From a virus, in IMG/VR virus record IMGVR_UViG_3300017917_004192, positions 1 through 55,336 of that record: a stretch of 55,336 bases of DNA. One strand, 5' to 3'. The notes beneath the pieces are model-generated. The model was not told the origin of the DNA and searched no databases. It saw only the letters and a list, made by a program, of their open reading frames with translations. Shown piece after piece: positions 39,001 to 54,917 of this stretch (the stretch's first letter is position 1; every line of letters begins with the position of its first letter). The position numbers were made by a program, and so were the translations under genes.

Positions 39001-42000
39001 AATAATATAATCGCCAATATACTCACTATTAACAAAGTTAATTTCAGAATAATTTCTAACCTCCTTATCTGCAGTAGAAATATATCCAGATTTTTCTAAA
39101 GAATAATATAATCTATTTGGCAATTCTTCACTATAGTTCAGCGTCAACGATGCATTAGTAGATACTCCTACTGTTCCAACTCCAGATATTGAAAATGTGC
39201 TTGTAGATCCTGTAGATACAAATTCATCAGCAAAATTTTCATCATAGTATAATTTGAAATTAAATCCAGATAATGAAGTATCAGAAAGGTTGAAAACTAA
39301 GTTATTATTTCTAATAATATTGATCTTAGGGTTGATTTGGGAAATTTTTTGATTAGTTGCTCCAACATCATTAATATCTGTAACTGTTGGTGGAACTGTA
39401 ACGGAGTCTATATAAGTTTCGCACAATTTTATTCTATTATTGTCTACTTTATAGACAAAATAAAATCCAGTAGATAATCCAGATGCAACCAAACCACTTG
39501 AAGAGTAAAGTATTTTATCCCCGGTATTTAAATTATGTGAATTGATGGTAATTGTATTTGTTACTGTATTAATTCCAGATGAAGTAAAATCTATAGGATT
39601 GATTAATAATTTTTCTCTTGTAGAATCATATTTAACGTATATTGAAATAGAAGTTCCGATCCCAACAGAAATGTTGGGTTGTACATTTAGATTGATTAAA
39701 TCCCCGGAATAAAGATTGTGTGAAGTCGATACTGATACTGTAGACTTAACTCGATCTACATTACCAGTTATTTGAGCATAATTTGAAGATATTGAATATT
39801 GAAAATCATCTGTTCCATTATTTTGAAAAAATACACCATTGGATGTTGTTGTTAATCCAACTTGCGTTACTATTCCAATATAATCTTTTGATTTTTTAAT
39901 GATATAAACTTTTTGTTCATTTCCACTTATAGGGAGATTATATGTTCCACTTGTTGCTGTATTAGATACTATAATGGGCGATGATGAAGGAGTTTTTTTA
40001 AAAATTACTTCTTGATTTGTCTGGAATGGATGATTTGGTATAAAAATTGATTGAATTGGGGCAGAAATTTGATAACTTCTTGCTCCAACAGTATATGTTA
40101 GTGGAATGGATATCCCTGCAGTAGTTCCAACTCCAACAGATTGCTTTGGATTAAAGTAAACTTTTTGATTTAATTTGGAATCAAAATAATCAATTTTATA
40201 ATCGAATGTAAATGAATCTGGAATAAAATTAACCGTAGTAGTTGCAGTATGTGCCAGTCCAGTAGTTTCTCTAACTACTCTGATAACATTTACATCATTA
40301 AAGATGTTTAAGACAGATAATGTTTCTCCTTCAACTATAATACTACTTCCGATTGAAATATTATTTGGTAGTGTTGAAACATACACATCGGTTATAATTC
40401 CAGCTAAAGAATATGCAGGCATATCTTTAGTTAACACCGATTTATAGGAAGTAACTCCAACTTGGTGTAAACCATTAAGTTGGCTTAATGATGTTGAGAA
40501 TCCAGAAATTATCACTCCATCAAGATTTTCTATATTATGTTGAGGTGGAATTAAAACTTGTATTTGATTTCCATTTTTCCAAGTAAAAATAGAATCTTGA
40601 TACGTCGTTACCGAGGTTTGTAATTTGACAATATCTTTTCCTTTTATTTTAGAAACTTTAGCAATTATTCCACCACCACCAGTTTCACTTTCATCAAAAA
40701 TTAAACTATCTCCAACTTTATAATCGGAACCTCCTTCAATAATATCAAACTTAGATATACCTCCAGAAATAACAGATTCTACGGAAGTCTTTTGATTTAT
40801 GATTTCACTTGATTCGATAATAAAATCATTTCCCCCATACTTATCATTGACTTTATATGGGAATGTATTTCTAACTAATTTTGAATTATTGAGATCGAAT
40901 GATTGATCTAAGTATGCATTTTCTGGTATAAATTTAGATCTATAGTAATTTCCAACAAAATATGGGAACTTTCCAACTAAATTTCCAAAAATATCAAAAT
41001 CTGATGTTGCAAAGTATGCATAAACACCATTAGGAAATTCTGGAGTTATGCAAAATCTACCGTTGTACTGATCAAGATCTCCAGAATTAGAGAAAATATA
41101 ATCATCGATAAAAAACCCATCAATAAATCCAGATGGTCTATTTACAATATTGCTAATATTTAACGAGTATCCAGATACAAGTCTTTTAATTTCTGAATTT
41201 TTATTACCTGCATTAGAATAACCATATGCCCCATATATTGGATTCCCATCATAAGCCCATCCAATAATTGGAGAATGATTTGTTCCATCATCATTAAATT
41301 CTGTTTGTAAACTTTCAGAATAACCAGAAATAAAATATTGTAAATTATTGTTAGAATTAATTAAAATCTCATTAGATGGTTTTCTAGTTTCACTAATAGA
41401 ATCTTCAACCCCGTAAAAAATATTATTGTTTATTTCTAAAGATCTAATATGAGGGTCAAATATAGCACCAGTTCCAGATGATTCTACTTTTATTTTTGTA
41501 TTTGAATCATATCCAAGACCAGAACTTATGATTACTACGTCTACTATCTTGTTATTTTCAACAACAGGTCTTAATACACATCCACTTCCAGAACCAATTA
41601 CATTTAAGTTTGGAGTTGAATAATACTCAATACCACCATATTGAACGTTTACATCGATAACTTTTCCACCAATAACAATTGGTGATAATTGTGCATCTTT
41701 ACCATTTTTAATTGTTATTTTTGGTTTTTTATGCAAATTTATAATGGTAGATCCATAGTCACTACCACTATTATAAACATAAGTTCCAACTATTGATCCC
41801 CTAACCACTGGATATGCATCAATTGATGTAGTATTGGAAGTACTACCTATTCCGGAAGATGTATAGTTAACTTTAACACTAATTTCCGGATAATTGAAAA
41901 TTTGATATCCTGATCCAGTATTAGTAAATTTTAAGTATTTTTCTCTTTGATAATTTGTTATATCTGTACCACCAATACCGGCATCACATAATCTAAATGA

Positions 42001-44961
42001 ATTATTATCAATCTTTAAAATATAATATTGATTATTTGTGGATAATCCACTTATTGTTGCAGTCTCATAATTATATGTTACTAATTCCCCATGATTAAAT
42101 CCATGATTTTCAAAATTAATTGTACTATTGATTGTTGAAATTCCAGCAGAATTTACTCGCAATTTTCTATTTTGATAACCAATTCCACCATTTAAGACTT
42201 TAATGTCAGTCAGTATTTTTTTAGGTTCTGTTTCAAACTTATGAACTCCTGAAGTTCCTACAGTAGTAAACCCAACAGTATTAATACCAGATCTATAATC
42301 ACTTAATCTCTCATAAATTTGAATAGTTGAGTCATTAATGTACTTTACATAATACAATGCACCAGTTTTTAATGTTCTTCCCTGATCAGTATTATTTGAA
42401 TTAAATGTTCCGATACCTAAGGGTGAATTATTTTCCGAATCATAGTAAATTGATTGTCCATCGTTAAGATAGTGGGGAGATGAAAATGTAATAGTTTCAT
42501 TAGTTATATCAACTCCACCACCATTTGCAATTTGTTTAGCATCAAATTTTATTTCTCTTCTTCTAATTTCTGTAATTGGTTGAAATGAAGCACCTCTACC
42601 ATTACCTCCTGTAACTGCGATTGATACAATTGTATCTAAACTAAATTCTTGAGGATCAACAAATATCTTTTCAATTGTTCCACTAACAATAGGTTGAATA
42701 GATGCAATTCCCGAAGAAACTTGCAGTATTGGTGGATTAATTACGTCATAATTTTTTCCTCCGTTTAAAACATTTACCGATTTTAATGGTCCATAGTAAA
42801 TATTTTGATTTGATTTATAACTTGCTAATTCAACACCGTTAATTAACATTCCAATTGAACCTGGGATTGTCAAATCCGATTTTCCATCTGCAATATTATT
42901 AACAATAGGAAACTTTCTTAAAATCTTTTGGGCAGAAATAGTATTTGTATTTTGACTATTTAAAATGAATAAGTGGTCTCCAGTAGTTAATTCACCAAAA
43001 GAAACATAGCTTCCAGAACCAATAAATGATCTAGATGCATATAATCTAATTTGTCTTTTATCAGCGAGAACTTCGGCATAATAAATTCCTCTAGATAATC
43101 CGAAAATTGGAGTATTTTCTGGATTATAAAAAATTTCTGCTCCGTTTAAAAACGAAACTTTTTCTGAAAAATTAATAGTGGTATATAAATTAGTTTCGTT
43201 ATTATAATCTGAAACTGATGATGCCTTATATCCAAAAGTATTTTTTGATATTACATAAGATGGTAAAGAATTTGATGCAACATATCCATAATTGTCTTCA
43301 CCATCAAAATAAACATTTTGAACATCTGCAAATAAAGAATTAAATTCTAATGGAGTTATATTTGTAGATGTGGAAGATGTCTTTAATATCCTTCTAAGGT
43401 CATAATCTTTATTCTGATTTAGAATAAAACTTCCGGAGGTTGTAACTTGCCTATCGGTTATTTCCGAAACACTCAAATCTGTAGCAACTACAAATTCGGT
43501 ATTTCTTTCTAAAATTTCGATTTTATCACCAATCTTTAGACTAGATTTATCAATATCCCCACTTAAAAATATTTGAGATATTGATCCCTCGTCAAAAGTT
43601 GATATTTGATATCTTGAACTAGTATTATAAATCCAACTATTCGCAAAAATTTGTTTATTTGATGGATTTGTTGTTGGGTTTTCTACTACATCACCCAGAT
43701 GTTTAATTCCTATGCGCTCATTTTCATCAACTGAAGTTAGTTGTAATGTTGAGGAAAAATTCGATAAAACACCAGTCAGTCTCAATTCTACTTTTTTAGT
43801 TAAATCGCCATTTTCATAACCATAATATGTTTCATCTGAACGAACAATGCTAGTTTTTGGGACAGTTGTTCCAATACCAGTACATCCAAAAAATTGGTTT
43901 ATACTTTTACTAGTATACTGTGCAATATTATCACCGAGATAAATTGTTCCAGTTTGCCCAAAACCAATTGTAGAATCTACTGTTATAATATTTGCATTTG
44001 GTTCTACCTGTTCTATAACTCTAGTGCTACCAGTAATATTAAAAGTTCCTGTAATTGTTGGGAATGAGTCATCATACCCAACAAAAACAAACAATTTGTA
44101 GTAATTTTTTCCACCTCTTCTTATAACCTCAACTTCGGATACTGATGCTGTAGTATTTTCGTCAGTAGACTTTTTAATCGTTTGCCCAACTAATAGAGAG
44201 GGATCGCCAGAAATTCTTTCTGCGACCATTACTTCTCTTTGAACAAATTGTGCAGAAGATGGTTTAATTAAAAATTGTTCTAAGTCAATTACTTTTGGTT
44301 TCTCTCCATATAAAACGTTAAATAAAATTCTAAATGATTCGTCAGTCCCTTTAGTTTGATATAGAGTTTTTGATTCTTTTATGAAATTTCCTACGTTCAA
44401 ATCAGAAACGAAATTTTTATCTTCAAAACCTGGAGTAAGGCTATATTTTAATTTTTTATAAAATTCCTGTAAAAACTGAGAACTTAAATTTATTACCTTT
44501 GCATTATTGGAATGAAAAGATGCCGAAGTTTCGGAAAAAACTAACTCTTCTGAGTTTAAATCTTTGTGGTAACTAGTAATCCCACTAAATCCACGAATAC
44601 ATCCGGTAAATGTATTTGTTGTAAGTCCGGTGTAGGTAATTATTTCATCATCAATCTTTAATAAACCATATGTTGGGGGAAATCCTTTCGTTGAAGTAAC
44701 CGTTACAATACCGGCAGAAGATGAAATATCTGTCGTTAATACAGTAGATCCAACTATTACTTCGGGTATTAGATTATCTAAATTTAAGTATTGGTCTAAA
44801 TTTTCAGAAATATCTACTGGACCACCTTGATATTCCTGAGAAATATAATACTGCTTTAAAAATTCTGCCGTTTTTGGACTTTCATCTAAAATAAATTCTG
44901 GTAATTGGTTTCCAATTATTTGTTGAACTTTTACCCTTGAGTCAAAACCAGTTTGTATCAT
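33040..44961 (-). CDS. gp7: Giant baseplate wedge protein gp7 (3,973 residues)
   Basis: Its position between gp6 and gp8 and a homologous block identify it. Residues 201-262 (YQTKGTDESFRILFNVLYGE, then LLVGQTIK) parallel the C-terminal part of T4 gp7 (YSTKGIEASYKFLFKVLYNE, DLVGQTIY). Here that block is N-terminal, and about 3,700 further residues follow, while T4 gp7 is 1,032 in total. Near residue 1230 is a YHYH-type motif (GWAYDGNPIYGAYGYSN). Numerous GxGY beta-repeats occur, especially in the last 500 residues, together with an FINGILQEPKYAYQFNGG module. The frame is open throughout. It probably forms the wedge core plus large outward extensions. Confidence 0.85.
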   Translation of the reverse strand: MIQTGFDSRVKVQQIIGNQLPEFILDESPKTAEFLKQYYISQEYQGGPVDISENLDQYLNLDNLIPEVIVGSTVLTTDISSSAGIVTVTSTKGFPPTYGLLKIDDEIITYTGLTTNTFTGCIRGFSGITSYHKDLNSEELVFSETSASFHSNNAKVINLSSQFLQEFYKKLKYSLTPGFEDKNFVSDLNVGNFIKESKTLYQTKGTDESFRILFNVLYGEKPKVIDLEQFLIKPSSAQFVQREVMVAERISGDPSLLVGQTIKKSTDENTTASVSEVEVIRRGGKNYYKLFVFVGYDDSFPTITGTFNITGSTRVIEQVEPNANIITVDSTIGFGQTGTIYLGDNIAQYTSKSINQFFGCTGIGTTVPKTSIVRSDETYYGYENGDLTKKVELRLTGVLSNFSSTLQLTSVDENERIGIKHLGDVVENPTTNPSNKQIFANSWIYNTSSRYQISTFDEGSISQIFLSGDIDKSSLKIGDKIEILERNTEFVVATDLSVSEITDRQVTTSGSFILNQNKDYDLRRILKTSSTSTNITPLEFNSLFADVQNVYFDGEDNYGYVASNSLPSYVISKNTFGYKASSVSDYNNETNLYTTINFSEKVSFLNGAEIFYNPENTPIFGLSRGIYYAEVLADKRQIRLYASRSFIGSGSYVSFGELTTGDHLFILNSQNTNTISAQKILRKFPIVNNIADGKSDLTIPGSIGMLINGVELASYKSNQNIYYGPLKSVNVLNGGKNYDVINPPILQVSSGIASIQPIVSGTIEKIFVDPQEFSLDTIVSIAVTGGNGRGASFQPITEIRRREIKFDAKQIANGGGVDITNETITFSSPHYLNDGQSIYYDSENNSPLGIGTFNSNNTDQGRTLKTGALYYVKYINDSTIQIYERLSDYRSGINTVGFTTVGTSGVHKFETEPKKILTDIKVLNGGIGYQNRKLRVNSAGISTINSTINFENHGFNHGELVTYNYETATISGLSTNNQYYILKIDNNSFRLCDAGIGGTDITNYQREKYLKFTNTGSGYQIFNYPEISVKVNYTSSGIGSTSNTTSIDAYPVVRGSIVGTYVYNSGSDYGSTIINLHKKPKITIKNGKDAQLSPIVIGGKVIDVNVQYGGIEYYSTPNLNVIGSGSGCVLRPVVENNKIVDVVIISSGLGYDSNTKIKVESSGTGAIFDPHIRSLEINNNIFYGVEDSISETRKPSNEILINSNNNLQYFISGYSESLQTEFNDDGTNHSPIIGWAYDGNPIYGAYGYSNAGNKNSEIKRLVSGYSLNISNIVNRPSGFIDGFFIDDYIFSNSGDLDQYNGRFCITPEFPNGVYAYFATSDFDIFGNLVGKFPYFVGNYYRSKFIPENAYLDQSFDLNNSKLVRNTFPYKVNDKYGGNDFIIESSEIINQKTSVESVISGGISKFDIIEGGSDYKVGDSLIFDESETGGGGIIAKVSKIKGKDIVKLQTSVTTYQDSIFTWKNGNQIQVLIPPQHNIENLDGVIISGFSTSLSQLNGLHQVGVTSYKSVLTKDMPAYSLAGIITDVYVSTLPNNISIGSSIIVEGETLSVLNIFNDVNVIRVVRETTGLAHTATTTVNFIPDSFTFDYKIDYFDSKLNQKVYFNPKQSVGVGTTAGISIPLTYTVGARSYQISAPIQSIFIPNHPFQTNQEVIFKKTPSSSPIIVSNTATSGTYNLPISGNEQKVYIIKKSKDYIGIVTQVGLTTTSNGVFFQNNGTDDFQYSISSNYAQITGNVDRVKSTVSVSTSHNLYSGDLINLNVQPNISVGIGTSISIYVKYDSTREKLLINPIDFTSSGINTVTNTITINSHNLNTGDKILYSSSGLVASGLSTGFYFVYKVDNNRIKLCETYIDSVTVPPTVTDINDVGATNQKISQINPKINIIRNNNLVFNLSDTSLSGFNFKLYYDENFADEFVSTGSTSTFSISGVGTVGVSTNASLTLNYSEELPNRLYYSLEKSGYISTADKEVRNYSEINFVNSEYIGDYIISGVGTTTFNIVLDNVPEKLSYNQSECSTLEYYTNSNTSSGPIKNIQLISGGNGFKKLPIFAGSNSENGRSAYIICKSDSIGKINQTKILNEGFEYPSDKTLNPKADIPKTLILSSSNTISNISVLNSGKNYTYAPNLVVVNSDTGQKIDSGFLSANLFGNGIVSVDIINEPKGLPSKSVKIKSINNTNGVGIQTISTSNSGIATCVLVTPLSGFSIEPFGIGDKIFVEGIQQYGSDGDGFNSENYGYEFFTVINYTNIGTNEPRELTFSVAGFTTNPGIAKTSQESYGSIVNYKNYPEFEVEQKLSSFIIGEYLSVLVSGEFENTDLKVVQFNDTNIKIEGTYKLVKNDIIRGNQSESIGTINSIIENYGEFEVSYSSRQKIGWIDNVGILDDDIQVISNNDYYQNLSYSLKSSQTWENIVSSVNGILHPIGLKNFADTEVISSSTVGVGSTPTEYTTTIYDIIDENRIDTINNFDLVLDTDLTAENLAKSVKFKNRRLTDYIQCRTNRVLEVDDISPLFLSSEIDSQLNSNIFNIIPSKKYNRFLVQVSNPLLNEIQFTELVSINDISNTFTLEKGSISNKSYPIADIYGYIDEEVGNSYLKFVPSEVYNRDYKIKVLSNTFDNYQTGIGTYSIGFVNLINSNLSVGIGSSSTIVSAPIGNLQSIFSNVHIIDNTTNKMNYVELFVDHDGTNTNISEYYFDSDSEFSSNFIGSFSASISNNILSLNYTNTTNNQIILRSRNVGFGSTSIGISTYRFKSLGQPDGNELTVNYSSNYSKVSTSSTIFSLNKSDFSSAKSTIRVSIGQTSALHQVMMMHDDTNVYTLQYPFLSVGSTSGIGTFGGEYVGSSLVLKFYPSPEISGTFTVLSFNESFYKELDIVNIPQNLTYANITESVNSQTYYSINSPDRNRLNFNLNYKDIPIFEKTFNPIDTNVLNYSTGEFKISNHFFSTGEELIYTPSSSFTGIGATSVGIGSTLNSSGIVTDRLPSTVFAIKVNNDIFKLSTRKDYAQAGIYVTFTSVGEGNAHKLEMAKKNEKSIITISNLIQHPISYSLVSHNLNTGGQIGTASTIFALTGISSITTKNLLKIDNEYMQVLNVGFATTSSGPISFAGTFPLVEVKRGYVGSSAATHADGTVAYVYGGSFNISGNKIYFTEAPRGKFIDDDTLDNLLPSRSYFSGRVFLKNDYTSNQIYDDLSNKFTGIGQTYTLTSQGINTVGLTSIGGNGIILINGIFQTPTTQNNTNNNYVIRENTNLGISSIVFSGITSSNGSVVISDYDINRNQLPRGGIIVSLGSTPGLGFAPLVGASVTAIVSGGSIISVGVGTSGNYGSGYRNPVSIAVTESGHTGTAATITAIVGAGGTLSFNIVGGGTGYTNPTINISSPIYENLPVTGVSRLGIGSTTDTGIGLLLNVEVGASSTVGVGSTLFEVTSFKITRPGYGFKNGDVIKPVGLVTAKGLSSPLSDFTLTVLDTFTDSFSAWQFGELDYIDSISSLQNGTRRRFPLNYNGQLLSFEKDSSNSDSQVIDFDSLLVIFINGILQEPKYAYQFNGGTSFTFTSPPKTEDNVAIFFYRGSSQDSQSVDIYETLKEGDEIQIFNSNILPGITTTQDPRIITNIKKSDAIDTNVYGGQGTDATNYKPVSWIRQKVDRFVDGRIISKSRDSIEPQIYPTAKIIRNLGYTDTDLFVDDSRFFNYENDPSVDFKALIVSGGADPVSAGVSAIVSAAGTIQSLSITNPGNGYTGPSVTVKFAAPLTVGISTLLPMGVGIGIGTTATATITVSAAGTLTTPITITNPGLGYSIGMEPQVIVPLPDPVYETISGVTNIQGFSGSIVGIATTVGIGTNLAIKFTIDSSLSPFTGLSVGYPIYIFNTKVGNGVTSIIDKDSAVVGVGTTFLDNIYYINAFSAATGIITCNIKSNTSVVGIATTGSTIGQFSWGRLSGFTRSSYPISIAVSSYQTDSGLSTFPTIQRRGYGLRNIGGLQKSF

Positions 44962-46889: not shown

Positions 46890-47291
46890 TTATCTCGCTG
46901 CCTCTAATATAAATGAAAATTGCTGCGTTGGAATTTCCTGTCCGATGATGTTAAATGTAACCGTAACTTCAAATTCATTTGTATCTGGTCTTGGTTCAAC
47001 ATCGACAACTACATCATTAACTCTAGGTTCATAGTTTTGAATGCATAAAGTAATTTGGTCTCTTATTGAAGATGCTGTACCATAATCAACAAAATCAAAT
47101 AAAGTAGAGCGAACATTCGAACCGATTGTAGAATTAAAAAATCTTTCGGTAGGAATTGTTTCAACTAGATTGCGAATTGACCTTGTAATTGCATTTTGAT
47201 TTTTCAAAATTGGCAAATCCTTGGTAACAGGATGAGGTTCAAAGGATAAACTAATATCTTTGAAGGATCTAGATATCCTAGTAACTGCCAT
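46890..47291 (-). CDS. gp25: Baseplate wedge protein gp25
   Basis: This 133-residue protein has the gpW/gp25 fold. It initiates sheath polymerisation on the baseplate. Family features are the start ITRSIRNLVETIPTERFFNSTIGSN (residues about 34-58), then LFDFVDYGTASSIRDQI and the beta hairpin NEFEVTVTFNII. The length equals T4 gp25 (132). It follows a pair of near-consensus late boxes and opens the wedge operon. Confidence 0.95.
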   Translation of the reverse strand: MAVTRISRSFKDISLSFEPHPVTKDLPILKNQNAITRSIRNLVETIPTERFFNSTIGSNVRSTLFDFVDYGTASSIRDQITLCIQNYEPRVNDVVVDVEPRPDTNEFEVTVTFNIIGQEIPTQQFSFILEAAR

Positions 47292-48811: not shown

Positions 48812-49564
48812 TCAAATGACTCTTGTTTTTTCGTGACCAACTCTAATACGAGGATCGCACCAAATTTCAAAGCCTGCTTCTTTTGCATCTAAACAGAACG
48901 ATACATCTTCACCACACATGTCCTGAACTTCACCAGACTCGAAGACTTGCATTTTAGGGGCAAACCAAGGATATTCAAGATTTTCGAACACTCCTTTCTT
49001 AATCAGAACCCAACCAAAACCAGTATAATCAACTGTGAATGGTTTACGACGCTTTGAGATGCTTTCAACTGTTTCATGATTCATGACTCCACCATTATTG
49101 CGAAAATCATCTTCTTCCAACCAGTGAGCAACAGATGTGGTGTGACCATCTTCAGTTGCATACCAACCAGCGGAGATGTCCTTGTCCATTAGAACAAGTT
49201 GCCAAAACTTTTCACTATTGAAGACAATATCAGAATCAATCCAAAGTTGCCAATCATAAGGAAGTTTACCATCCCAAGGAATTTGCTTTGGACCACGAAG
49301 TACATTTGCACCAAGGCACTTGCATCGTGCAAAATTTACCATCGATGAATAATCTTGTGAGATTTGAATACTTGCCCCTGCCTGTACCAAATCAAAACAA
49401 AGTTGAACAAAACTCTTCAGATAGGTATATGAAACTCCGCGCCCAGGAAGACAAAAGACAATTGATTTGCCTCTTACCATCTGTTTTGCCAAGTCATAAT
49501 CCCATTCTTGCTGTTGTGGTGCCGCTGCGGGCGCCTTTGCTTTTACTGTAAATCCTTTAGCCAT
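48812..49564 (-). CDS. Glycosyltransferase, GT-A fold
   Basis: This 250-residue protein has the DxD metal motif in DWQLWIDSDIVFNSEKFW, typical of GT-A glycosyltransferases. Near the C-terminus FESGEVQDMCGEDVSFCLDA resembles the acidic GED catalytic segment of family 2-like enzymes. The first 20 residues are an Ala/Pro/Gln-rich linker. It could modify phage DNA, virion proteins or host surface sugars. The sequence does not say which. It has its own host-type promoter. Confidence 0.85.
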   Translation of the reverse strand: MAKGFTVKAKAPAAAPQQQEWDYDLAKQMVRGKSIVFCLPGRGVSYTYLKSFVQLCFDLVQAGASIQISQDYSSMVNFARCKCLGANVLRGPKQIPWDGKLPYDWQLWIDSDIVFNSEKFWQLVLMDKDISAGWYATEDGHTTSVAHWLEEDDFRNNGGVMNHETVESISKRRKPFTVDYTGFGWVLIKKGVFENLEYPWFAPKMQVFESGEVQDMCGEDVSFCLDAKEAGFEIWCDPRIRVGHEKTRVI

Positions 49565-49828: not shown

Positions 49829-50575
49829 TTACTCTACAATTAAATTCCAAATTTTTTTATTTTTTAATCTGGCTCCGGAAAGATCGGATGCAATACGATG
49901 TGAAGGTCTATTTTTAGTTTTCATTCGACTTGTCACCAAATCATAATTTTCTTTTGCCCATTCTCTTAAATTGTATCCCTCCCAAACTTTACCTGTTAGA
50001 GTATCGGTAATTTTATAATATTTTGCATTTGGTTCAGAAGCATTTGTAAATCGATCTATCCATCTTAAATTTGTATAGTGATTATTTTTTTTATTTTGAT
50101 CTATGTGATCAATCTCAGTATAATTGTTAGGATTTTCTACAAATGCCTCTGCAACCAACTGATGAATACTTTTTTTAATTTGATGATAGACTCCCTTTTC
50201 ATCATGTATTGAGATGTTTATACATTCATACTGATGTTCTGGATATTTTGGATGGCCTCGAAATGCAGGTTTTAGATAGATAAGACCATATTCATTAATC
50301 GGACCATATTTTCCTGTTCGATCATATTTTCCTGGTCTTCGATATGCTTTTCCATCTTCAGTAATATAATAACCGGGATATTGAGTTTCTTTCATATTCT
50401 CCGGTATCTTAATAACCGGATAGTTATAACTCACTTTTTCTTTTGGTTTTGCAATTGGAGTTAACCATTTCTCTCTCGGTTTTTTTAAATAAACCCATTT
50501 CCCATCTTCTTTGATGTACTGCACTCCTTTGGCATTTGTCTTAATTGTTCCCTCTGGAATTATTGGTTTTCCCAT
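49829..50575 (-). CDS. HNH endonuclease, free-standing homing-type
   Basis: This 248-residue protein starts at the ATG at 50575 (MGKPIIPEGTIKTNAKGVQY) with AGGG as ribosome-binding site 8 bases upstream. The frame stays open much further upstream, but that part is out of character and I reject it. The HNH core is VAEAFVENPNNYTEIDHIDQ, then NKKNNHYTNLRW. The C-terminal region YNLREWAKENYDL looks like a DNA-binding helix repeat of the NUMOD type. It lies exactly at the border to the GC-rich block. Confidence 0.87.
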   Translation of the reverse strand: MGKPIIPEGTIKTNAKGVQYIKEDGKWVYLKKPREKWLTPIAKPKEKVSYNYPVIKIPENMKETQYPGYYITEDGKAYRRPGKYDRTGKYGPINEYGLIYLKPAFRGHPKYPEHQYECINISIHDEKGVYHQIKKSIHQLVAEAFVENPNNYTEIDHIDQNKKNNHYTNLRWIDRFTNASEPNAKYYKITDTLTGKVWEGYNLREWAKENYDLVTSRMKTKNRPSHRIASDLSGARLKNKKIWNLIVE

Positions 50576-50816: not shown

Positions 50817-51029
50817 TCACCCCCACTGAGTGCTGCGCCACCCGCTAATGGGGCACGGTGCCACATCAGGGGCAAGGGTCTCTGAATACTGGGCGGCGAT
50901 GGCGGTAGCGGGCACACCCCAGTGAATGTAGGCGGAGGGGCGGGAACCGTTCTTCAGTTGGTCAGCGCGGGAGATCCACTTGATCTGACGGGTAGCAAGG
51001 TCAGAGCAGGCAGCAAGGGGGAAACGCAT
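50817..51029 (-). CDS. Small GC-rich cassette gene, 70 residues, function unknown
   Basis: The ATG at 51029 follows seam repeat S1 and gives MRFPLAACSDLATRQIKWIS, ending SGWRSTQWG. A longer reading to 51083 would run through the promoter, so I reject it. The protein is rich in Ala, Arg and Trp with no recognised domain. It is the last gene of the cassette series before the HNH gene. It could be partly degenerate, as the C-terminal half has little pattern. Confidence 0.5.
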   Translation of the reverse strand: MRFPLAACSDLATRQIKWISRADQLKNGSRPSAYIHWGVPATAIAAQYSETLAPDVAPCPISGWRSTQWG

Positions 51030-51083
51030 CGGGTCGGTGTCGGTTGCTTTGGAATTGTAAGGCACGAACGGGGCAGGGGTCAA
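51030..51083 (-). promoter_or_regulatory. Seam repeat S1: promoter and leader
   Basis: TTGACC (51078-51083) is followed after 18 bases by TACAAT (51054-51059), then a 24-base leader containing CAACCGACACCGACC before the ATG. The -35 box includes the stop codon of the preceding gene. It is the only seam with a clear -35 box at good spacing. Confidence 0.7.
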
Positions 51084-51268
51084 TACCCCAACCAGACCAA
51101 AAACTCACCGGCATCTACGGGTCCGAATTTGGCGGTCGTCCCGTAGTCGGTGCGGAAGTCATCCCAGAGGGAATGGTCCTTTGCTGCCTGGCAGGCAGTG
51201 CTCCAACGAATGCACCCGTTATCATCGGCGCAGTTTAGGAGCAGGGCAGGGAAGGTGGCGAAGGTCAT
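51080..51268 (-). CDS. Small GC-rich cassette gene, 62 residues
   Basis: From the ATG at 51268 it reads MTFATFPALLLNCADDNGCI and ends FGPVDAGEFLVWLGY. The last motif (FRTDYG, then DAGEFLVWLGY) is one I associate with small cyanophage proteins of unknown function. A longer open frame to 51382 crosses seam S2 and is not needed. Its stop lies within the -35 box of the next seam. Confidence 0.65.
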   Translation of the reverse strand: MTFATFPALLLNCADDNGCIRWSTACQAAKDHSLWDDFRTDYGTTAKFGPVDAGEFLVWLGY

Positions 51269-51308
51269 CGGTCGGTGTCGGTTGACTTGAGAGTATTGTA
51301 GCAGGTCA
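51269..51308 (-). promoter_or_regulatory. Seam repeat S2: promoter and leader
   Basis: The minus strand reads TGACCTGCTACAATACTC and then CAAGTCAACCGACACCGACC directly before the ATG. The -10 box is TACAAT (51295-51300). The first three bases TGA are the stop of the preceding gene. No -35 box is visible. Confidence 0.68.
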
Positions 51309-51512
51309 GAGGGAGTAGCAGTGTTGATTGACCCACTGCCCCAACGAACGATCGGAGTTCCACAGGAGGGACAGGATCTCACGGCGCGATGCCTTCAGAC
51401 GATACTGCTTCCAGGAGGTTTTCAGGAAGCGGACCCGAACCGTACCCGTGATGGGGTTGACGCTCAGGGTATCGATCGCTGCGCTGCCGTGAGTGGTGAT
51501 GGGGTAGATCAT
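51306..51512 (-). CDS. KTSC-domain-like small protein, 68 residues
   Basis: The protein reads MIYPITTHGSAAIDTLSVNP, then TVRVRFLKTSWKQYRLKASR and LGQWVNQH. The order SA-I-x-strand-strand-Y, a helix after a short turn, and a terminal G-x-x-V/F-N fits the small KTSC fold, which is often found in phages and as a tag domain elsewhere. The length suits one domain. Its stop codon is the TGA of seam S2. The function of the fold is not established. Confidence 0.62.
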   Translation of the reverse strand: MIYPITTHGSAAIDTLSVNPITGTVRVRFLKTSWKQYRLKASRREILSLLWNSDRSLGQWVNQHCYSL

Positions 51513-51561
51513 GAGGTCCGTTGCGGATGAGAGTATTGTAGCAGGTCGGGGAGGGAGTCAA
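51513..51561 (-). promoter_or_regulatory. Seam repeat S3: promoter and leader
   Basis: GACCTGCTACAATACTCTC is followed by a 22-base gap to the ATG. TACAAT is at 51535-51540. A TTGACT at 51556-51561 lies 15 bases upstream, which is short for a -35 box. Confidence 0.62.
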
Positions 51562-51743
51562 CCCTCCCAGTCATCCGATGGGGTCAGAGCCCAGACCAAC
51601 GATTCCAGGCGGCAGCAGTAGATGAGGTCATCACCGTGATGGCGGACCTTCCACACGGGGGTGATGGTGGAATCGTTGGGGATGCGGTCGATCCGCTCCA
51701 CACCGTAGGGCGCCAGTTGGACCATCGCTTCGGAGATGAGCAT
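51558..51743 (-). CDS. Small GC-rich cassette gene, 61 residues
   Basis: It reads MLISEAMVQLAPYGVERIDR, then WKVRHHGDDLIYCCRLESLV and ends SDDWEG. The pattern of a helix and short strands (TITPVWKVRHHGDDLIYCC) could be a small alpha-beta fold, but I do not recognise a family. It starts directly after seam S4. Coding bias and precise fit between two seams support it as a gene. Confidence 0.62.
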   Translation of the reverse strand: MLISEAMVQLAPYGVERIDRIPNDSTITPVWKVRHHGDDLIYCCRLESLVWALTPSDDWEG

Positions 51744-51787
51744 CGGAGGGGGGGGGGTGGTTGACTTGAGAGTATTGTAGCAGGTCA
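51744..51787 (-). promoter_or_regulatory. Seam repeat S4: promoter and leader
   Basis: TGACCTGCTACAATACTC and CAAGTCAACC, then a C-rich stretch to the ATG. TACAAT is at 51774-51779. TGA at 51785-51787 is the stop of the HicA-like gene. Confidence 0.68.
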
Positions 51788-52003
51788 GGCGTCCCGTGCT
51801 GCTAAGAGCAGGGCATGAAATTTGTGGAACTCATGAGTCATGCCAGGCGATAGGGTCGGGCGTCCCTTGCTTCCGTGAGTCGGCAGGTGGAAGGTCTGGG
51901 GGACTGCCGGATGGGTCACCTTGTCATGACTGCCACCTGGTTTGATGGTGGCGCCTGCCTTCAGAATCAGGCGGCGGGCTTCACGGACCTTGATAGGGGT
52001 CAT
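51785..52003 (-). CDS. hicA: HicA-like mRNA interferase toxin, no HicB partner seen
   Basis: The ATG at 52003 gives 72 residues. REARRLILKAGATIKPGGSH, then DKVTHPAVPQTFHLPTHGSK follows the HicA pattern: a first helix, the GSH motif with catalytic His26, then strands ending in P-x-H-G. HicA proteins bind double-stranded RNA and cut mRNA. They are normally encoded beside the antitoxin HicB. Neither neighbouring gene looks like HicB. It could be a domesticated RNA-binding protein or a host-takeover nuclease. Confidence 0.75.
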   Translation of the reverse strand: MTPIKVREARRLILKAGATIKPGGSHDKVTHPAVPQTFHLPTHGSKGRPTLSPGMTHEFHKFHALLLAARDA

Positions 52004-52039
52004 GGGGTGGGGTCGGTTGCTTTGGTATTGTAGCAGGTC
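52004..52039 (-). promoter_or_regulatory. Seam repeat S5: promoter and leader
   Basis: GACCTGCTACAATACC is followed by AAAGCAACCGACCCCACCCC before the ATG. TACAAT is at 52027-52032. The leader is closest to that of S1. Confidence 0.66.
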
Positions 52040-52044
52040 GGGGG

Positions 52045-52233
52045 TCACTCCATCCCCATCGCTGCCTTAAGGGTATTGTAGGCGTTCAGGTAATAGTCTG
52101 CGTCGGTGCCCTTGCCAGTAACCCGACAGTCGCAAGCGAGGCAGAGCAGAGCAGTTCGGATCGTAGACCACTGCGCCTCAGTCAGGGTAACGGTGCAGAG
52201 GTCCAGGGGCAGGACGTTGGTGCGGACGGTCAT
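52045..52233 (-). CDS. Small GC-rich cassette gene, 62 residues
   Basis: From the ATG at 52233 it reads MTVRTNVLPLDLCTVTLTEA, then QWSTIRTALLCLACDCRVTG and ends NTLKAAMGME. The LTEAQW helix start resembles small helical cyanophage proteins of unknown function. Helix-helix architecture with several Cys residues is likely. The longer frame upstream (to 52392) would run through seam S6 and over another gene, so I reject it. Confidence 0.65.
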   Translation of the reverse strand: MTVRTNVLPLDLCTVTLTEAQWSTIRTALLCLACDCRVTGKGTDADYYLNAYNTLKAAMGME

Positions 52234-52270
52234 GGGGTGTCTGTTGAACTGAGAGTATTGTAGCAGGTCA
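52234..52270 (-). promoter_or_regulatory. Seam repeat S6: promoter and leader
   Basis: TGACCTGCTACAATACTC, then AGTTCAACAGACACCCC and the ATG. TACAAT is at 52257-52262. TGA at 52268-52270 is the stop of the preceding gene. Confidence 0.68.
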
Positions 52271-52447
52271 CCGCCACTCCAGAAAGGTGGAGGGGTTGCC
52301 GTAGTCTCCGATGACAACCCCGTTGCAGCGGACCTCAGCGTATCCGTATTCTTCAGACAGAGAGTAGCAGAGGTCCCATGCGCGGTCCTCATCGGTGGTC
52401 GTGTTCTCCCAGGGAGCGGAGGGGCAGATAACGTCGTAGCGGGTCAT
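52268..52447 (-). CDS. Small GC-rich cassette gene, 59 residues
   Basis: It reads MTRYDVICPSAPWENTTTDE, then DRAWDLCYSLSEEYGYAEVR and ends NPSTFLEWR. It is an open frame fitting exactly between seam S7 and seam S6. Acidic helix followed by two strands (YAEVRCNGVVIGDY) suggests a small folded protein. The family is unknown. It shares its stop codon with the seam. Confidence 0.65.
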   Translation of the reverse strand: MTRYDVICPSAPWENTTTDEDRAWDLCYSLSEEYGYAEVRCNGVVIGDYGNPSTFLEWR

Positions 52448-52479
52448 GAGGTCGTTTGGTTGACTGTCTCCATACTATA
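52448..52479 (-). promoter_or_regulatory. Seam repeat S7: promoter and leader
   Basis: A -10-like TATAGT (52474-52479) is followed by a leader containing AGTCAACCAAACGACC and the ATG. Upstream lies a GC-rich imperfect hairpin (about 52481-52510). Confidence 0.58.
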
Positions 52480-52508
52480 GACCCCCCACCCGCGTCAGCA
52501 GGCAGGGG

Positions 52509-52516
52509 GTGTGCCA
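52509..52516 (-). repeat. TGGCACAC 3'-element, copy 1
   Basis: TGGCACAC on the minus strand lies 3 bases after the stop of the gene ending at 52520. The matching 5' arm is absent here. Confidence 0.6.
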
Positions 52517-52519
52517 CTA

Positions 52520-52660
52520 TCAGAATTGGATCTCCTGCAGGGTCGGGGCGTCGGCAGGGGCAGCTGCGTCACCCTCAGCGGTCAGGGTCTCCAGAATCTG
52601 CAGCAGTTCGGCACCGTTGGCGGCGCGGTTGAGCAGGGCAGCAGCAAGGTCAAAGGTCAT
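52520..52660 (-). CDS. Small Ala-rich cassette gene, 46 residues
   Basis: It reads MTFDLAAALLNRAANGAELL and ends APADAPTLQEIQF. A first helix with NGAELLQILETL, then an Ala/Pro linker, then a short tail. The plan resembles tiny helical cyanophage peptides. The promoter side is weak (TAATAC/TACAAA-like bases between 52661 and 52680), so this is the least supported gene of the series after the first one. Confidence 0.55.
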   Translation of the reverse strand: MTFDLAAALLNRAANGAELLQILETLTAEGDAAAPADAPTLQEIQF

Positions 52661-52723
52661 GGTAAGTTTGTATTAGGGTTTGCTGGGCGTCTTTCAGGGC
52701 GCACCCGTTCCCATGGTATCAGG

Positions 52724-52885
52724 TCAGCGGGCGAACTGCGCCAGACTGCTGGGAGCGACGTGAGCGGGCGATCCACAGGACCGGTAGAAGTCTACCATAC
52801 GCTCTGCCTCTGCCAGGGTGCGGAACCACTGGGAGCGCCATTCGCAGGCGTTGTAGGGGGTCTGGTAACGGACTTCGATTCGCAT
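52724..52885 (-). CDS. Small cassette gene, 53 residues
   Basis: It reads MRIEVRYQTPYNACEWRSQW, then FRTLAEAERMVDFYRSCGSP and ends SLAQFAR. Strand-turn-strand followed by a helix (LAEAERMVDFYRSCG) gives a compact alpha-beta pattern. I know no family. It starts after seam S9. Downstream (52690-52710) lies an AACGG..GCGCCC stretch that returns near 53190. Confidence 0.62.
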   Translation of the reverse strand: MRIEVRYQTPYNACEWRSQWFRTLAEAERMVDFYRSCGSPAHVAPSSLAQFAR

Positions 52886-52920
52886 GGGGTTGGTTGCGTG
52901 TGAGAGAATTCTACAGGGTC
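52886..52920 (-). promoter_or_regulatory. Seam repeat S9: promoter and leader
   Basis: TGACCCTGTAGAATTCTC is followed by a CACACGCAACCAACCCC leader and the ATG. The -10-like TAGAAT is at 52908-52913. Confidence 0.62.
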
Positions 52921-52921
52921 A

Positions 52922-52941
52922 GGGGGTCGGGTGTGACCCCC
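52922..52941 (-). terminator. Possible terminator hairpin after the 63-residue gene
   Basis: Perfect seven-base arms GGGGGTC and GACCCCC enclose a six-base loop. No T-run follows, so termination would be weak or need help. It lies between a TGGCACAC element and seam S9. Confidence 0.5.
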
Positions 52942-52943
52942 CG

Positions 52944-52969
52944 GTGTGCCAGTCCCTCAGGCGGCACAC
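52944..52969 (-). repeat. TGGCACAC hairpin around a stop codon, copy 2
   Basis: The arms GTGTGCC and GGCACAC flank a loop that contains the TGA stop (52957-52959) of the gene ending there. The 5' arm on the mRNA is the coding sequence for the last residues. Confidence 0.7.
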
Positions 52970-53148
52970 AGCTCATGGTAGCGGGACGCTTCCACCAGCA
53001 GGTCATTCTCCCAGCGGTAGAAGGTCAGAATCTCATCGTAAGCGGCATCGATCGCCCGCTGGGCTTCTGCCTTAAGAACCGCTGCCTTACATTGGGCGGC
53101 GATCTCATCGATGCTGACAGCGCGATCGGTGGCGGGGTTGTAACGCAT
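52957..53148 (-). CDS. Small helical cassette gene, 63 residues
   Basis: It reads MRYNPATDRAVSIDEIAAQC, then KAAVLKAEAQRAIDAAYDEI and ends SRYHELCAA. It is almost entirely helical and Ala-rich, with no known domain. The last codons form one arm of the TGGCACAC hairpin. It starts after seam S10 and shares an 18-base leader with the next upstream gene. Confidence 0.65.
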   Translation of the reverse strand: MRYNPATDRAVSIDEIAAQCKAAVLKAEAQRAIDAAYDEILTFYRWENDLLVEASRYHELCAA

Positions 53149-53179
53149 GGGGTTGTCTGTGGTTGACTGAATCAGTATA
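53149..53179 (-). promoter_or_regulatory. Seam repeat S10: promoter and leader
   Basis: TATACT (53174-53179) is followed by GATTCA and GTCAACCACAGACAACCC, then C and the ATG. The 18-base leader core is identical to that of S11. Confidence 0.7.
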
Positions 53180-53208
53180 GGGCAGTCTTTAGGGCGCTGC
53201 CGTTCCCG

Positions 53209-53216
53209 GTGTGCCA
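53209..53216 (-). repeat. TGGCACAC 3'-element, copy 3
   Basis: TGGCACAC on the minus strand follows two bases after the stop of the gene ending at 53219. Only a short partner (ACAC) is seen upstream. Confidence 0.6.
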
Positions 53217-53218
53217 GT

Positions 53219-53479
53219 TTAGAAATCGAACACGTCGCCGTTGATTTCAGCGCGGTTGACTTTAGGATCGTCCCACTTTACACCGTCCGGAGTTTCTTTA
53301 GTGCCAAATTCATAGAATGCTTCCAGCAGTTCTTCATAGCAGCAGATGTCATTCTCCTGAATGAAGTTATGAATGCCCTCATCATTCTCAATCCAGAGCA
53401 CAACATTCCAGGTCTCATAATTGGTCCAACCGTTGTAGGTCTGGTCGGTGAGGCAGGTCTGGTAAGTGGTGACAGGCAT
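53219..53479 (-). CDS. NGWTNYETW-type conserved small protein, 86 residues
   Basis: It contains YNGWTNYETWNVVLWIENDE near residues 15-34, a signature of a widespread phage and bacterial family (a DUF, I think DUF7249) of unknown function. The rest is a helical stretch (EELLEAFYEFGTK) and an acidic end. It is less GC-rich than its neighbours. It starts after seam S11 and is followed by a TGGCACAC element. Confidence 0.82.
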   Translation of the reverse strand: MPVTTYQTCLTDQTYNGWTNYETWNVVLWIENDEGIHNFIQENDICCYEELLEAFYEFGTKETPDGVKWDDPKVNRAEINGDVFDF

Positions 53480-53518
53480 CGGGTTGTCTGTGGTTGACTT
53501 GTTAATTGTAAGGGGTCA
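53480..53518 (-). promoter_or_regulatory. Seam repeat S11: promoter and leader
   Basis: TGACCCCTTACAATTAAC, then AAGTCAACCACAGACAACCC, G and the ATG. TACAAT is at 53505-53510. The 5' part matches the seam upstream of the ligase-like gene. Confidence 0.72.
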
Positions 53519-53539
53519 GGGTGGGGTCTGTGGGGTGGT

Positions 53540-53567
53540 AGTGTGCCACCTTTTCAACTGGCACACT
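53540..53567 (-). repeat. TGGCACAC hairpin around a stop codon, copy 4
   Basis: Perfect nine-base arms AGTGTGCCA / TGGCACACT enclose a ten-base loop that holds the TGA stop (53554-53556) of the ligase-like gene. Confidence 0.78.
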
Positions 53568-54450
53568 GGAAGCGCCCGCTGTTGAAATTATGATAGGAAA
53601 AGACCTCACGATTCACCAGTTTGAACATACCAAACTCATTGGTCATGACATAACCTTCAGCATCAATCCTCTCCTGCCCGATGTAAGCGGCAGGACCATC
53701 ATTGCGGCACAGATAGAGACAATCTGCCTTGATAGATTTCACCAGCGCCCACAACCCCAGCAGGTTAGGATCGCAGTCAAATTCACTATTCACAACAGGA
53801 CGATTCTCACGGATGCAAGCATTCAGTTGCTGCTTGATCTTTGCTGCCTCTTTATCAGTCACAAACTTCACCGCAAGTGCCATCACCCGTGCAAACTTGC
53901 AGACCTCTTCAACATCAGCAAACGATTCTTGACCGTGCTGAATGTATGCCTGAGGTTTCACAAATTTGCAGTAGTGAGTGTCAGTGATGATAAAGTTCAT
54001 CGGGTGAGCAACAGCATCACGCAAATCATTCTCTGCCACGTAGACAGTATGAGGTGCGACAATAACCTCCTGATAGACTACCTCAGGAAACTTGTAAGTG
54101 ATCGTGTTGGGAGTATACTCATCACTACCACCAAACCCAATAAAATCACCTTGAATGATAGCATCTGTGCGAGGCAGATAATCAAAGCAAGCGTGAAGAA
54201 TACGCGCAACTTCACCCTGATAGAACGAATCAATCTCCTCATGATTGTGAGCGATACGAATCTTTTTCTTGTTAAAGACTGCTTTGGTTCCTACAAAGAA
54301 CTCACCGCAGGCAGGGTCAATACCCCAGACAATTGCAGGGGCACCGTCAATCTTAACGCTCAAGTTGCCAGGATTGACGAACCAATCCAGAACAGACAGG
54401 TCACCCGTGAGGATAGAATCTTCGGGGTGCTCAAGGTGGGTGTTTTTCAT
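53554..54450 (-). CDS. Covalent nucleotidyltransferase / RNA ligase-like protein (DUF6267-like)
   Basis: This 298-residue protein begins MKNTHLEHPEDSILTGDLSV. LSVKIDGAPAIVWG contains KIDG (33-36), the KxDG motif of ATP-dependent ligases and capping enzymes, in which Lys33 would be adenylated. Downstream FGMFKLVN (motif V-like) and EGYVMTN (motif IV-like) complete the pattern. The family is common in large phages, and its substrate is unknown. The -10-like TACAAT ends only 6 bases before the ATG, so the message would be leaderless. Confidence 0.8.
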   Translation of the reverse strand: MKNTHLEHPEDSILTGDLSVLDWFVNPGNLSVKIDGAPAIVWGIDPACGEFFVGTKAVFNKKKIRIAHNHEEIDSFYQGEVARILHACFDYLPRTDAIIQGDFIGFGGSDEYTPNTITYKFPEVVYQEVIVAPHTVYVAENDLRDAVAHPMNFIITDTHYCKFVKPQAYIQHGQESFADVEEVCKFARVMALAVKFVTDKEAAKIKQQLNACIRENRPVVNSEFDCDPNLLGLWALVKSIKADCLYLCRNDGPAAYIGQERIDAEGYVMTNEFGMFKLVNREVFSYHNFNSGRFQCAS

Positions 54451-54470
54451 GAGACTATTGTAAGGGGTCC
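54451..54470 (-). promoter_or_regulatory. Seam repeat S12: promoter of the ligase-like gene, leaderless
   Basis: GACCCCTTACAATAGTCTC runs straight into the ATG. TACAAT is at 54457-54462. It lacks the CAACC-rich leader of the other seams, so transcription would begin at or next to the start codon. Confidence 0.65.
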
Positions 54471-54490
54471 TGTGGGGGTCTGGGGTGGGT

Positions 54491-54518
54491 CGTGTGCCAC
54501 TCTCTCAACTGGCACACG
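54491..54518 (-). repeat. TGGCACAC hairpin, copy 5, free-standing
   Basis: Perfect nine-base arms CGTGTGCCA / TGGCACACG enclose a ten-base loop. The arm plus loop starts TGTGCCAGTTGA, the same 12 bases as the end of the ligase-like gene, but no coding frame leads into it. It lies after a separate true terminator. Confidence 0.75.
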
Positions 54519-54534
54519 GGCGGCCGACTTGAGT

Positions 54535-54563
54535 ATAAAAAAAAGGGGGCAATCTGCCCCCCC
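54535..54563 (-). terminator. Rho-independent terminator after the 115-residue gene
   Basis: On the minus strand GGGGGCA / TGCCCCC arms with a three-base loop are followed by eight T. It lies 7 bases past the stop of the gene ending at 54570. Confidence 0.92.
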
Positions 54564-54569
54564 GATTCT

Positions 54570-54917
54570 TTATGCAAACATGAAACCATTGGTGAATTCG
54601 TATTCATTGTAGACAGGCGAAGTTCCTGCCTGCCCGATGAACTTGTGAACGAACCAATTGAAGTTGCGTTGAAACACACATTCTCCCTTGATTCCGTGCT
54701 CTTGAAGAATCGCATTCAGACGCGATTTGGTGGTTGCAGACTGATAACCACCGTCAAAGATTTGCACGAAGTTGTCACCAACGGTAGCAATGTGATTGCC
54801 GAACAGAAACACTTTGGACTCTTGAGTTTCCGGGTCAAAGGTGACAGAAGTGTTGTCTTTTTGCCAGTTCTGGTTGTTCAGAATGGCAGCGTTCATTTCA
54901 CGTTCGATCTTACGCAT
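54570..54917 (-). CDS. Conserved phage/cyanobacterial protein, 115 residues
   Basis: It begins MRKIEREMNAAILNNQNWQK and continues NTSVTFDPETQESKVFLFGN, then FDGGYQSATTKSRLNAIL and VFQRNFNWFV. This is a recurring protein in cyanophages and related plasmid or phage genomes, with a mixed beta-alpha pattern. No function is established. A GAGAGGG ribosome-binding site precedes the start, unlike the SD-less cassette genes. It has its own strong terminator. Confidence 0.78.
   Translation of the reverse strand: MRKIEREMNAAILNNQNWQKDNTSVTFDPETQESKVFLFGNHIATVGDNFVQIFDGGYQSATTKSRLNAILQEHGIKGECVFQRNFNWFVHKFIGQAGTSPVYNEYEFTNGFMFA

Follow-up and report, generated by a model that had tools for sequence, protein, structure and literature searches.

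How do abundant cyanophages renew their hypervariable regions of small genes while leaving each gene intact? The question is raised by IMG/VR virus record IMGVR_UViG_3300017917_004192, analyzed here over positions 1 to 55,336 (hereafter, the window; 55,336 nucleotides). On its minus strand, the window carries an array of 11 small genes (50817-53479) separated by repeated intergenic sequences that run from the stop codon of one gene to the start of the next, which we call seams. We consider it probable that this locus of a T4-like cyanophage is a gene-cassette array in which genes are exchanged at the seams by phage homologous recombination, a reading that would answer the question at base resolution.

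Thirteen stop-to-start seams were extracted and numbered S0 to S12 in the 5' to 3' direction of the minus strand (Table 1). Six of them (S7 to S12; 51030-52270) share a compact design, namely, a TGA stop codon, 0 to 20 bases, an extended -10 box, ACTCTCA, an A/C-rich leader, and ATG, with TGCTACAAT as the -10 box in five of the six. The sequence TGACCTGCTACAATACTC is present in exactly three copies (51291-51308, 51770-51787, and 52253-52270), its TGA being the stop codon of the preceding gene each time, and TGCTACAATACTC has a fourth exact copy at 51531-51543 and a copy with two mismatches at 52023-52035. In comparison with 500 dinucleotide shuffles, the array was clearly repetitive: its top 13-mer had five copies (maximum of 2 in shuffles) and its top 18-mer four (maximum of 1). 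The pattern TGnTAnAAT occurred five times against 0.11 expected. Seams S0 to S6 are longer, most of them with GC-rich hairpins and/or TGGCACAC repeats followed by weaker -10 boxes (TATACT, TAGAAT, or TTACAAT).

A sequence-only reading of the window had attributed a single design to at least 11 seams; the repeated seams are real, but the compact design is limited to the six mentioned above, and S1 is nearly without leader. Its identical element in three seams, with the TGA doubling as the upstream stop, was recovered as TGACCTGCTACAATACTC, and the sequence that it saw in two other seams as GTCAACCACAGACAACCC, which precedes the genes starting at 53479 and 53148. Gene starts, which it placed every 210 to 330 bases, are 213 to 331 bases apart with the exception of an interval of 971 after the DUF6267 gene, and one further array gene (50817-51029) lies just outside the range of 51030-54470 that it covered. 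A second repeated motif, the inverted repeat GTGTGCCA...TGGCACAC, was observed at 53480-53556 and 54451-54572. Half sites of it occur in S0, S3, S4, and S6 as well as in the hairpin seams of other contigs.

The exact seam 18-mer was present in 70 IMG/VR stretches and the 16-mer TGCTACAATACTCTCA in at least 119, and a score of at least 14 of 18 yielded 522 seam hits in 154 loci. Of these hits, 495 (146 loci) lead into an ATG-initiated open reading frame (ORF) located 13 to 30 bases downstream, with a median length of 63 amino acids (aa); a stop codon lies before the seam for 471 of the 495 ORFs and is TGA in 446 cases. As judged from 15 contigs of 54 to 236 kb, seams mostly form one cluster on one strand per genome, and the arrays occupy a single locus across carriers, between the DUF6267 gene and gp25. 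In the logo of 346 distinct seams, TG, TAnAAT, and CTCTCA are conserved and the leader is nearly free of T, with no -35 hexamer. The leaders fold weakly, are composed of 43% C and 34% A, and contain a Shine-Dalgarno-like tetramer in only 12% of cases. A long spacer is found in about 22% of the seams, with a mean folding energy of -13.6 kcal/mol versus -8.0 kcal/mol for shuffles, whereas the other ~78% lack it and thus have no room for a terminator hairpin. Host genomes were also considered as carriers, and a single exact 18-mer match was obtained in GTDB genomes (L157); it lies in an alphaproteobacterial metagenome-assembled genome, within a stretch of 36% GC, is not an array, and was discarded.

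Where genes have changed neighbors, the position of the junction indicates which part of the seam travels with which gene. In 164 pairs from 26 families in which the same gene (at least 85% identity) follows a different upstream gene, identity stayed at 0.23 to 0.30 until ~10 bases before the core, then climbed through 0.51, 0.63, and 0.75 and reached 0.96 within the core, with 0.79 in the leader. In the mirror test (same upstream gene, different downstream gene; 347 pairs, 30 families), identity was 0.85 to 0.90 up to the stop codon, 0.62 in the spacer (baseline, 0.39), 0.90 in the core, and 0.61 in the leader (baseline, 0.58). In the first test, 94% of 72 distinct junctions had their shared stretch ending within -12 to +6 of the core start; in the mirror test, the end fell within +5 to +30 for 86% of 72 distinct junctions, with a mode (+17/+18) that coincides with the core end. 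The spacer therefore belongs to the upstream gene and the leader to the downstream gene, with the junction in or beside the core. For example, where the window has the family order F18-F3-F0 (Table 1), locus L056 has F18-F0. The left part of the L056 junction is an F18-type spacer, while its right half is identical to the F3-F0 seam of the window from the core to the gene start, as expected if one unit, from core to core, had been removed or inserted.

These junctions also bear on the main competing explanation, according to which the seams are nothing more than promoters and leaders whose likeness reflects selection, with convergence on the preferences of the host RNA polymerase and ribosome, while genes are gained and lost elsewhere by illegitimate recombination and the junctions appear clean since broken genes are purged. 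Such selection would be consistent with a core that reads as a canonical extended -10, common to all seams whatever the gene, and with dialects of the seam that differ between phages. However, random breakpoints should mix spacers and leaders, whereas the observed spacers stay with the upstream gene and the leaders with the downstream gene. Moreover, the shared stretch stops at the core edges, and single cassettes are inserted, deleted, or swapped between two cores. Selection without exchange at the seams is thus unlikely in our view.

Cassette exchange is further supported by the gene content of the arrays. The 484 complete seam-led ORFs were grouped into 69 families recurring in different combinations, with F0 found after 15 other families, F2 after 12, and F3 after 10. 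For these counts, upstream genes were assigned to ORF families, as stop-to-stop upstream frames had merged families, probably via seam-encoded peptides. In 60 nonredundant arrays, 181 of 227 adjacencies are distinct, and we identified 30 insertions or deletions (A-B-C beside A-C) and six swaps (A-x-C). The earlier proposal that genes are inserted or exchanged by recombination at the seams is supported by the many neighbors per family, by the breaks in similarity on both sides of the seams, and by the single-gene insertions, deletions, and swaps; the opposite pattern, with the same genes in the same order and diverged seams in related phages, was looked for and not found, although order is partly conserved. 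No homogenization of leaders was seen within arrays (0.58 in the same array versus 0.57 in different ones).

The majority-order fraction reached 0.908, compared to 0.720 in shuffled arrays, and F10 tends to come first in the arrays while F2 and F4 come last. Frequent exchange that mostly keeps position is what would be expected for recombination between aligned arrays. An integron-like system, in which the core would be the attachment (att) site of a site-specific recombinase, could likewise have units resembling cassettes, usually at one site in each genome, with junctions falling at a core of 18 bases. However, the integrase and att sites with inverted cores that characterize integrons were not seen: no conserved recombinase or integrase recurs among the proteins flanking 146 loci, where just an HNH nuclease was seen, in 12 cases, and the core is directional and promoter-like, without inverted-repeat att structure. 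Gene order is also too conserved for free insertion, which makes such a system highly improbable. The partly conserved order and the absence of a recombinase with the array favor homologous exchange between aligned arrays instead. Just as improbable are false neighbors created by assembly chimeras at short repeats, for although the carriers are mostly metagenomic contigs with nearly identical repeats, the core spans only 18 to 50 bases, 56 of the 163 adjacencies with a known source recur in at least 2 of 106 metagenomes, 11 families have two or more alternative neighbors each seen at least twice, and the cultured isolate S-PM2 shows the same architecture and families in an order of its own.

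In S-PM2, eight copies of TCAGTTCAAACGA (one mismatch allowed) are found at 22.08 to 24.6 kb, all on one strand, where seams of the type CCTGTAGGATAACTTCAGTTCAAACGAAACGACCCATG separate genes of families F3, F24, F7, F14, F16, and F2. This array (22.1 to 24.8 kb; 59% GC) lies upstream of gp25, has its own seam dialect, and has apparently gone unreported so far. S-CAM1 carries a looser version of the seam array, and the seam dialect of the window was found in no isolated phage. In the S-PM2 record (NC_006820, 22.9-24.8 kb), several plus-strand small genes are absent from the published annotation, and S-PM2p070 is annotated antisense over the DUF7249 gene and its seam, a probable misannotation.

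Several observations weigh against exchange at the seams. Most carriers were collected through the seam core, so the conservation of the core is in part a product of that selection. Sampling led by genes lowers the share of seams and reveals other dialects: when relatives of F0 were fetched by protein, without using the motif, a seam (at least 12 of 18) was found in 57% of 74 loci compared to 2.7% at random places, with upstream genes from many different families, whereas only 13% of the F27 relatives fetched by protein had a seam (background, 2.6%), the rest using other dialects such as TATACTGATCTCAGTTCAAACGA. S-SRM01, which among isolates is closest in its structural genes, has no seam, and some of the array families occur there in runs of genes that overlap or are tightly packed. 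In addition, the partly conserved, nonrandom gene order implies that exchange is constrained. Finally, the exact crossover point inside the core cannot be located, since promoter function would conserve the core in any case.

The sequence itself shows that there are units with a conserved core, that they occupy a single locus, and that junctions coincide with the core, and the conserved extended -10 suggests that each seam is a promoter. A unit would consist of an extended -10 (in most cases TGCTACAAT) and ACTCTCA, then a short A/C-rich leader that is unstructured and has no Shine-Dalgarno sequence, followed by a single small ORF with its stop codon and by a spacer, in which a terminator hairpin may be present or absent. 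Each gene would be transcribed by the host sigma-70 RNA polymerase, probably early, and because no -35 would be needed, the promoter could abut any stop codon and any gene could dock. T4 recombines at short repeats. In the simplest mechanism, which would act during coinfection or replication, the homologous recombination machinery of the phage (UvsX and gp46/47 in the T4 type) would pair seam copies of 18 to 50 bp, and whole cassettes would be inserted, deleted, or replaced with no gene broken and no promoter lost. Exchange would mostly involve arrays that are aligned at this shared locus, and a partial order would be the result. The small proteins are probably host-takeover or counterdefense factors whose repertoire would vary with the host. 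More tentatively, these arrays may represent a recombinase-free cassette system operating across the phage population, in which one 18-base sequence would serve as promoter, docking point at the upstream stop, and recombination site. Varying sets of small effectors would then be assembled at one locus out of a shared pool of ~70 families, with lineage-specific dialects setting which phages exchange; we find this broader proposal plausible without leaning toward it.

The window, which is the complete IMG/VR record, represents part of the genome of an uncultured T4-like cyanophage. Its structural module (1-25 kb) is 75% covered at 81% identity by the reservoir phage S-SRM01 (Kyanoviridae), the best match. 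The array stands out by its GC content (59% versus 33% for positions 1-49600) and sits 3.5 kb upstream of the gp25-like gene, after which comes gp6. An HNH endonuclease gene (49829-50575, minus strand) lies directly beyond the array, where GC drops sharply, and 12 loci have a relative of this nuclease near the array, upstream or downstream of it and in either orientation. Downstream of gp6, the minus strand carries an ORF of 3,973 aa (33040-44961). Genes of ~200 to 250 aa (flank clusters C16, C20, and C25), some of them nuclease-like by eye, were also observed just upstream of seam genes in six to eight loci each.

Table 1. Array genes, seams, and bordering genes in the window
Feature	Position	Strand	Remarks
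gp25-like baseplate wedge subunit	46890-47291	-	Downstream in 68 loci; marker of the known gp46-gp25 small-gene hot spot
Glycosyltransferase-like phrog_1574 protein, downstream border	48812-49564	-	Downstream in 87 loci
Family F2, 70 aa	50817-51029	-	Mostly last or next to last in arrays
Seam S12	51030-51082	-	TGA + TTACAATTC + A/C leader, before gene 50817-51029
Family F0, 62 aa	51080-51268	-	118 relatives in IMG/VR
Seam S11	51269-51308	-	TGACCTGCTACAATACTCTCAAGTCAACCGACACCGACCG; matches L056 exactly from core through leader to gene start although upstream gene differs
Family F3 (phrog_7365), 68 aa	51306-51512	-	Also in S-PM2 and S-CAM1
Seam S10	51513-51560	-	TGA, spacer, CCTGCTACAATACTCTCA, leader
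Family F18, 61 aa	51558-51743	-	
Seam S9	51744-51787	-	TGACCTGCTACAATACTCTCAAGTCAACC..., before F18 gene
Family F51, 72 aa	51785-52003	-	HicA-like
Seam S8	52004-52047	-	TGA, spacer, CCTGCTACAATACCA, leader
Family F19, 62 aa	52045-52233	-	
Seam S7	52234-52270	-	TGACCTGCTACAATACTCTCAGTTCAACAGACACCCC
Family F27 (phrog_17176), 59 aa	52268-52447	-	237 relatives in IMG/VR
Seam S6	52448-52522	-	Hairpin type (CCCCCTGCCTGC/GCGGGTGGGGGG), then TATAGTAT + CAACC leader
Family F6, 46 aa	52520-52660	-	
Seam S5	52661-52726	-	Atypical, long, weak fold, TAATACAAA box
Family F5, 53 aa	52724-52885	-	
Seam S4	52886-52959	-	TGGCACAC, GGGGGGTC/GACCCCC hairpin, CCTGTAGAATTCTCTCA, leader
Family F17, 63 aa	52957-53148	-	
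Seam S3	53149-53221	-	TGGCACAC, TATACT, GTCAACCACAGACAACCC leader
Family F7 (DUF7249, phrog_871), 86 aa	53219-53479	-	Also in S-PM2, S-CAM1, S-RSM4, Syn1, and S-CREM1
Seam S2	53480-53556	-	TGGCACAC inverted repeat, TTACAAT, GTCAACCACAGACAACCC leader
DUF6267 protein, upstream border	53554-54450	-	Upstream of array in 73 loci
Seam S1	54451-54572	-	Terminator-like hairpin + T run, TGGCACAC inverted repeat, TTACAAT; hardly any leader

On the function of the small proteins, Pfam gave almost nothing (DUF7249 and weak HicA and metallopeptidase matches) and PHROGs returned unknowns only. The F51 gene (51785-52003, minus strand) may encode an orphan HicA-like toxin (Pfam HicA, E value of 6.5e-5, just below the cut-off), with no HicB partner seen, and the family is present in other arrays too. 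Family F8, a 115-aa array protein found in L011, L019, L037, and other loci, has a HELIH metallopeptidase-like motif and a weak DUF6782 match. The seam itself provides a DNA handle for collecting hundreds of otherwise unrecognized small phage proteins.

No published description of these seams in cyanophages was found in the searchable literature, subscription papers being outside its scope. T4-type phages reportedly carry mobile regulatory cassettes made of an early promoter plus a stem-loop (PeSL), an idea attributed to Arbiol and colleagues in 2010 and to Comeau and colleagues in 2014. By the accounts in PMC4503421 and PMC3950731, PeSLs share with the seams a T4-like phage, a variable small-gene region, composite intergenic elements that act as promoters (putatively so in the seams), and exchange of genes between relatives at these elements by homologous recombination (probable for the seams). 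In our data, the carrier has an S-SRM01-like structural module with gp25 and gp6, the intergenic elements resemble sigma-70 promoters by a strongly conserved extended -10 without -35, and gene-exchange junctions between related phages fall at these elements. In contrast to PeSLs, most seams lack the defining stem-loop (the hairpins of the window are at S1, S4, and S6), start at a stop codon, and combine the -35-less extended -10 with a conserved A/C leader without Shine-Dalgarno sequence; the elements also vary little along the array, and more than 100 genomes share one gene pool at a single locus. The seam array would thus work like PeSL cassettes, yet differ by its mostly missing stem-loop. 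To the sequence-only reading it looked like an independent system; as the carrier is itself T4-like and S-PM2 has a diverged version, it may instead be a long-established branch of the PeSL strategy among cyanophages. With the S-PM2 array, the PeSL idea becomes open to testing in a cultured model.

The gp46-gp25 hot spot of cyanophages, named in a 2010 paper (PMC3037559), has the same position before gp25 and the same kind of small hypothetical genes, but that paper, as searched here, mentions the hot spot and neither repeated seams nor an exchange mechanism. The S-PM2 ORFanage (Puxty et al. 2015; PMC4503421) also holds orphan small genes of a cyanomyovirus with synteny rarely conserved in metagenomes, and that study argues against PeSL-type shuffling there, such elements being judged too sparse in S-PM2 to explain it. 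The ORFanage differs from our array by its region (about 5.8 to 15.5 kb), its overlapping genes, its absence of seams, and its lack of homology to the array gene pool; considered as a source of array genes, it gave no family match except one weak F2 fragment.

More distant systems share single traits with the seams. In cluster K mycobacteriophages (PMC3203893), start-associated sequences (SAS) and their extended forms with inverted repeats (ESAS) likewise stand right before many small-gene starts and sometimes hold the upstream stop. However, SAS (GGGATAGGAGCCC-type) contain a Shine-Dalgarno sequence 3 to 7 bases from the start, unlike the A/C-rich leaders described above, and they are thought to be translational and are not known as exchange points. 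Repeated intergenic elements with promoters, demonstrated by reporter assays, occur in halovirus HF2 (PMC8707807), and PeSL-like motifs precede most left-arm ORFs of HGTV-1, for which shuffling was proposed (PMC3950731). Both are archaeal viruses, and the HF2 repeats hold conserved positions and do not separate shuffled genes, in contrast to the cyanophage seams.

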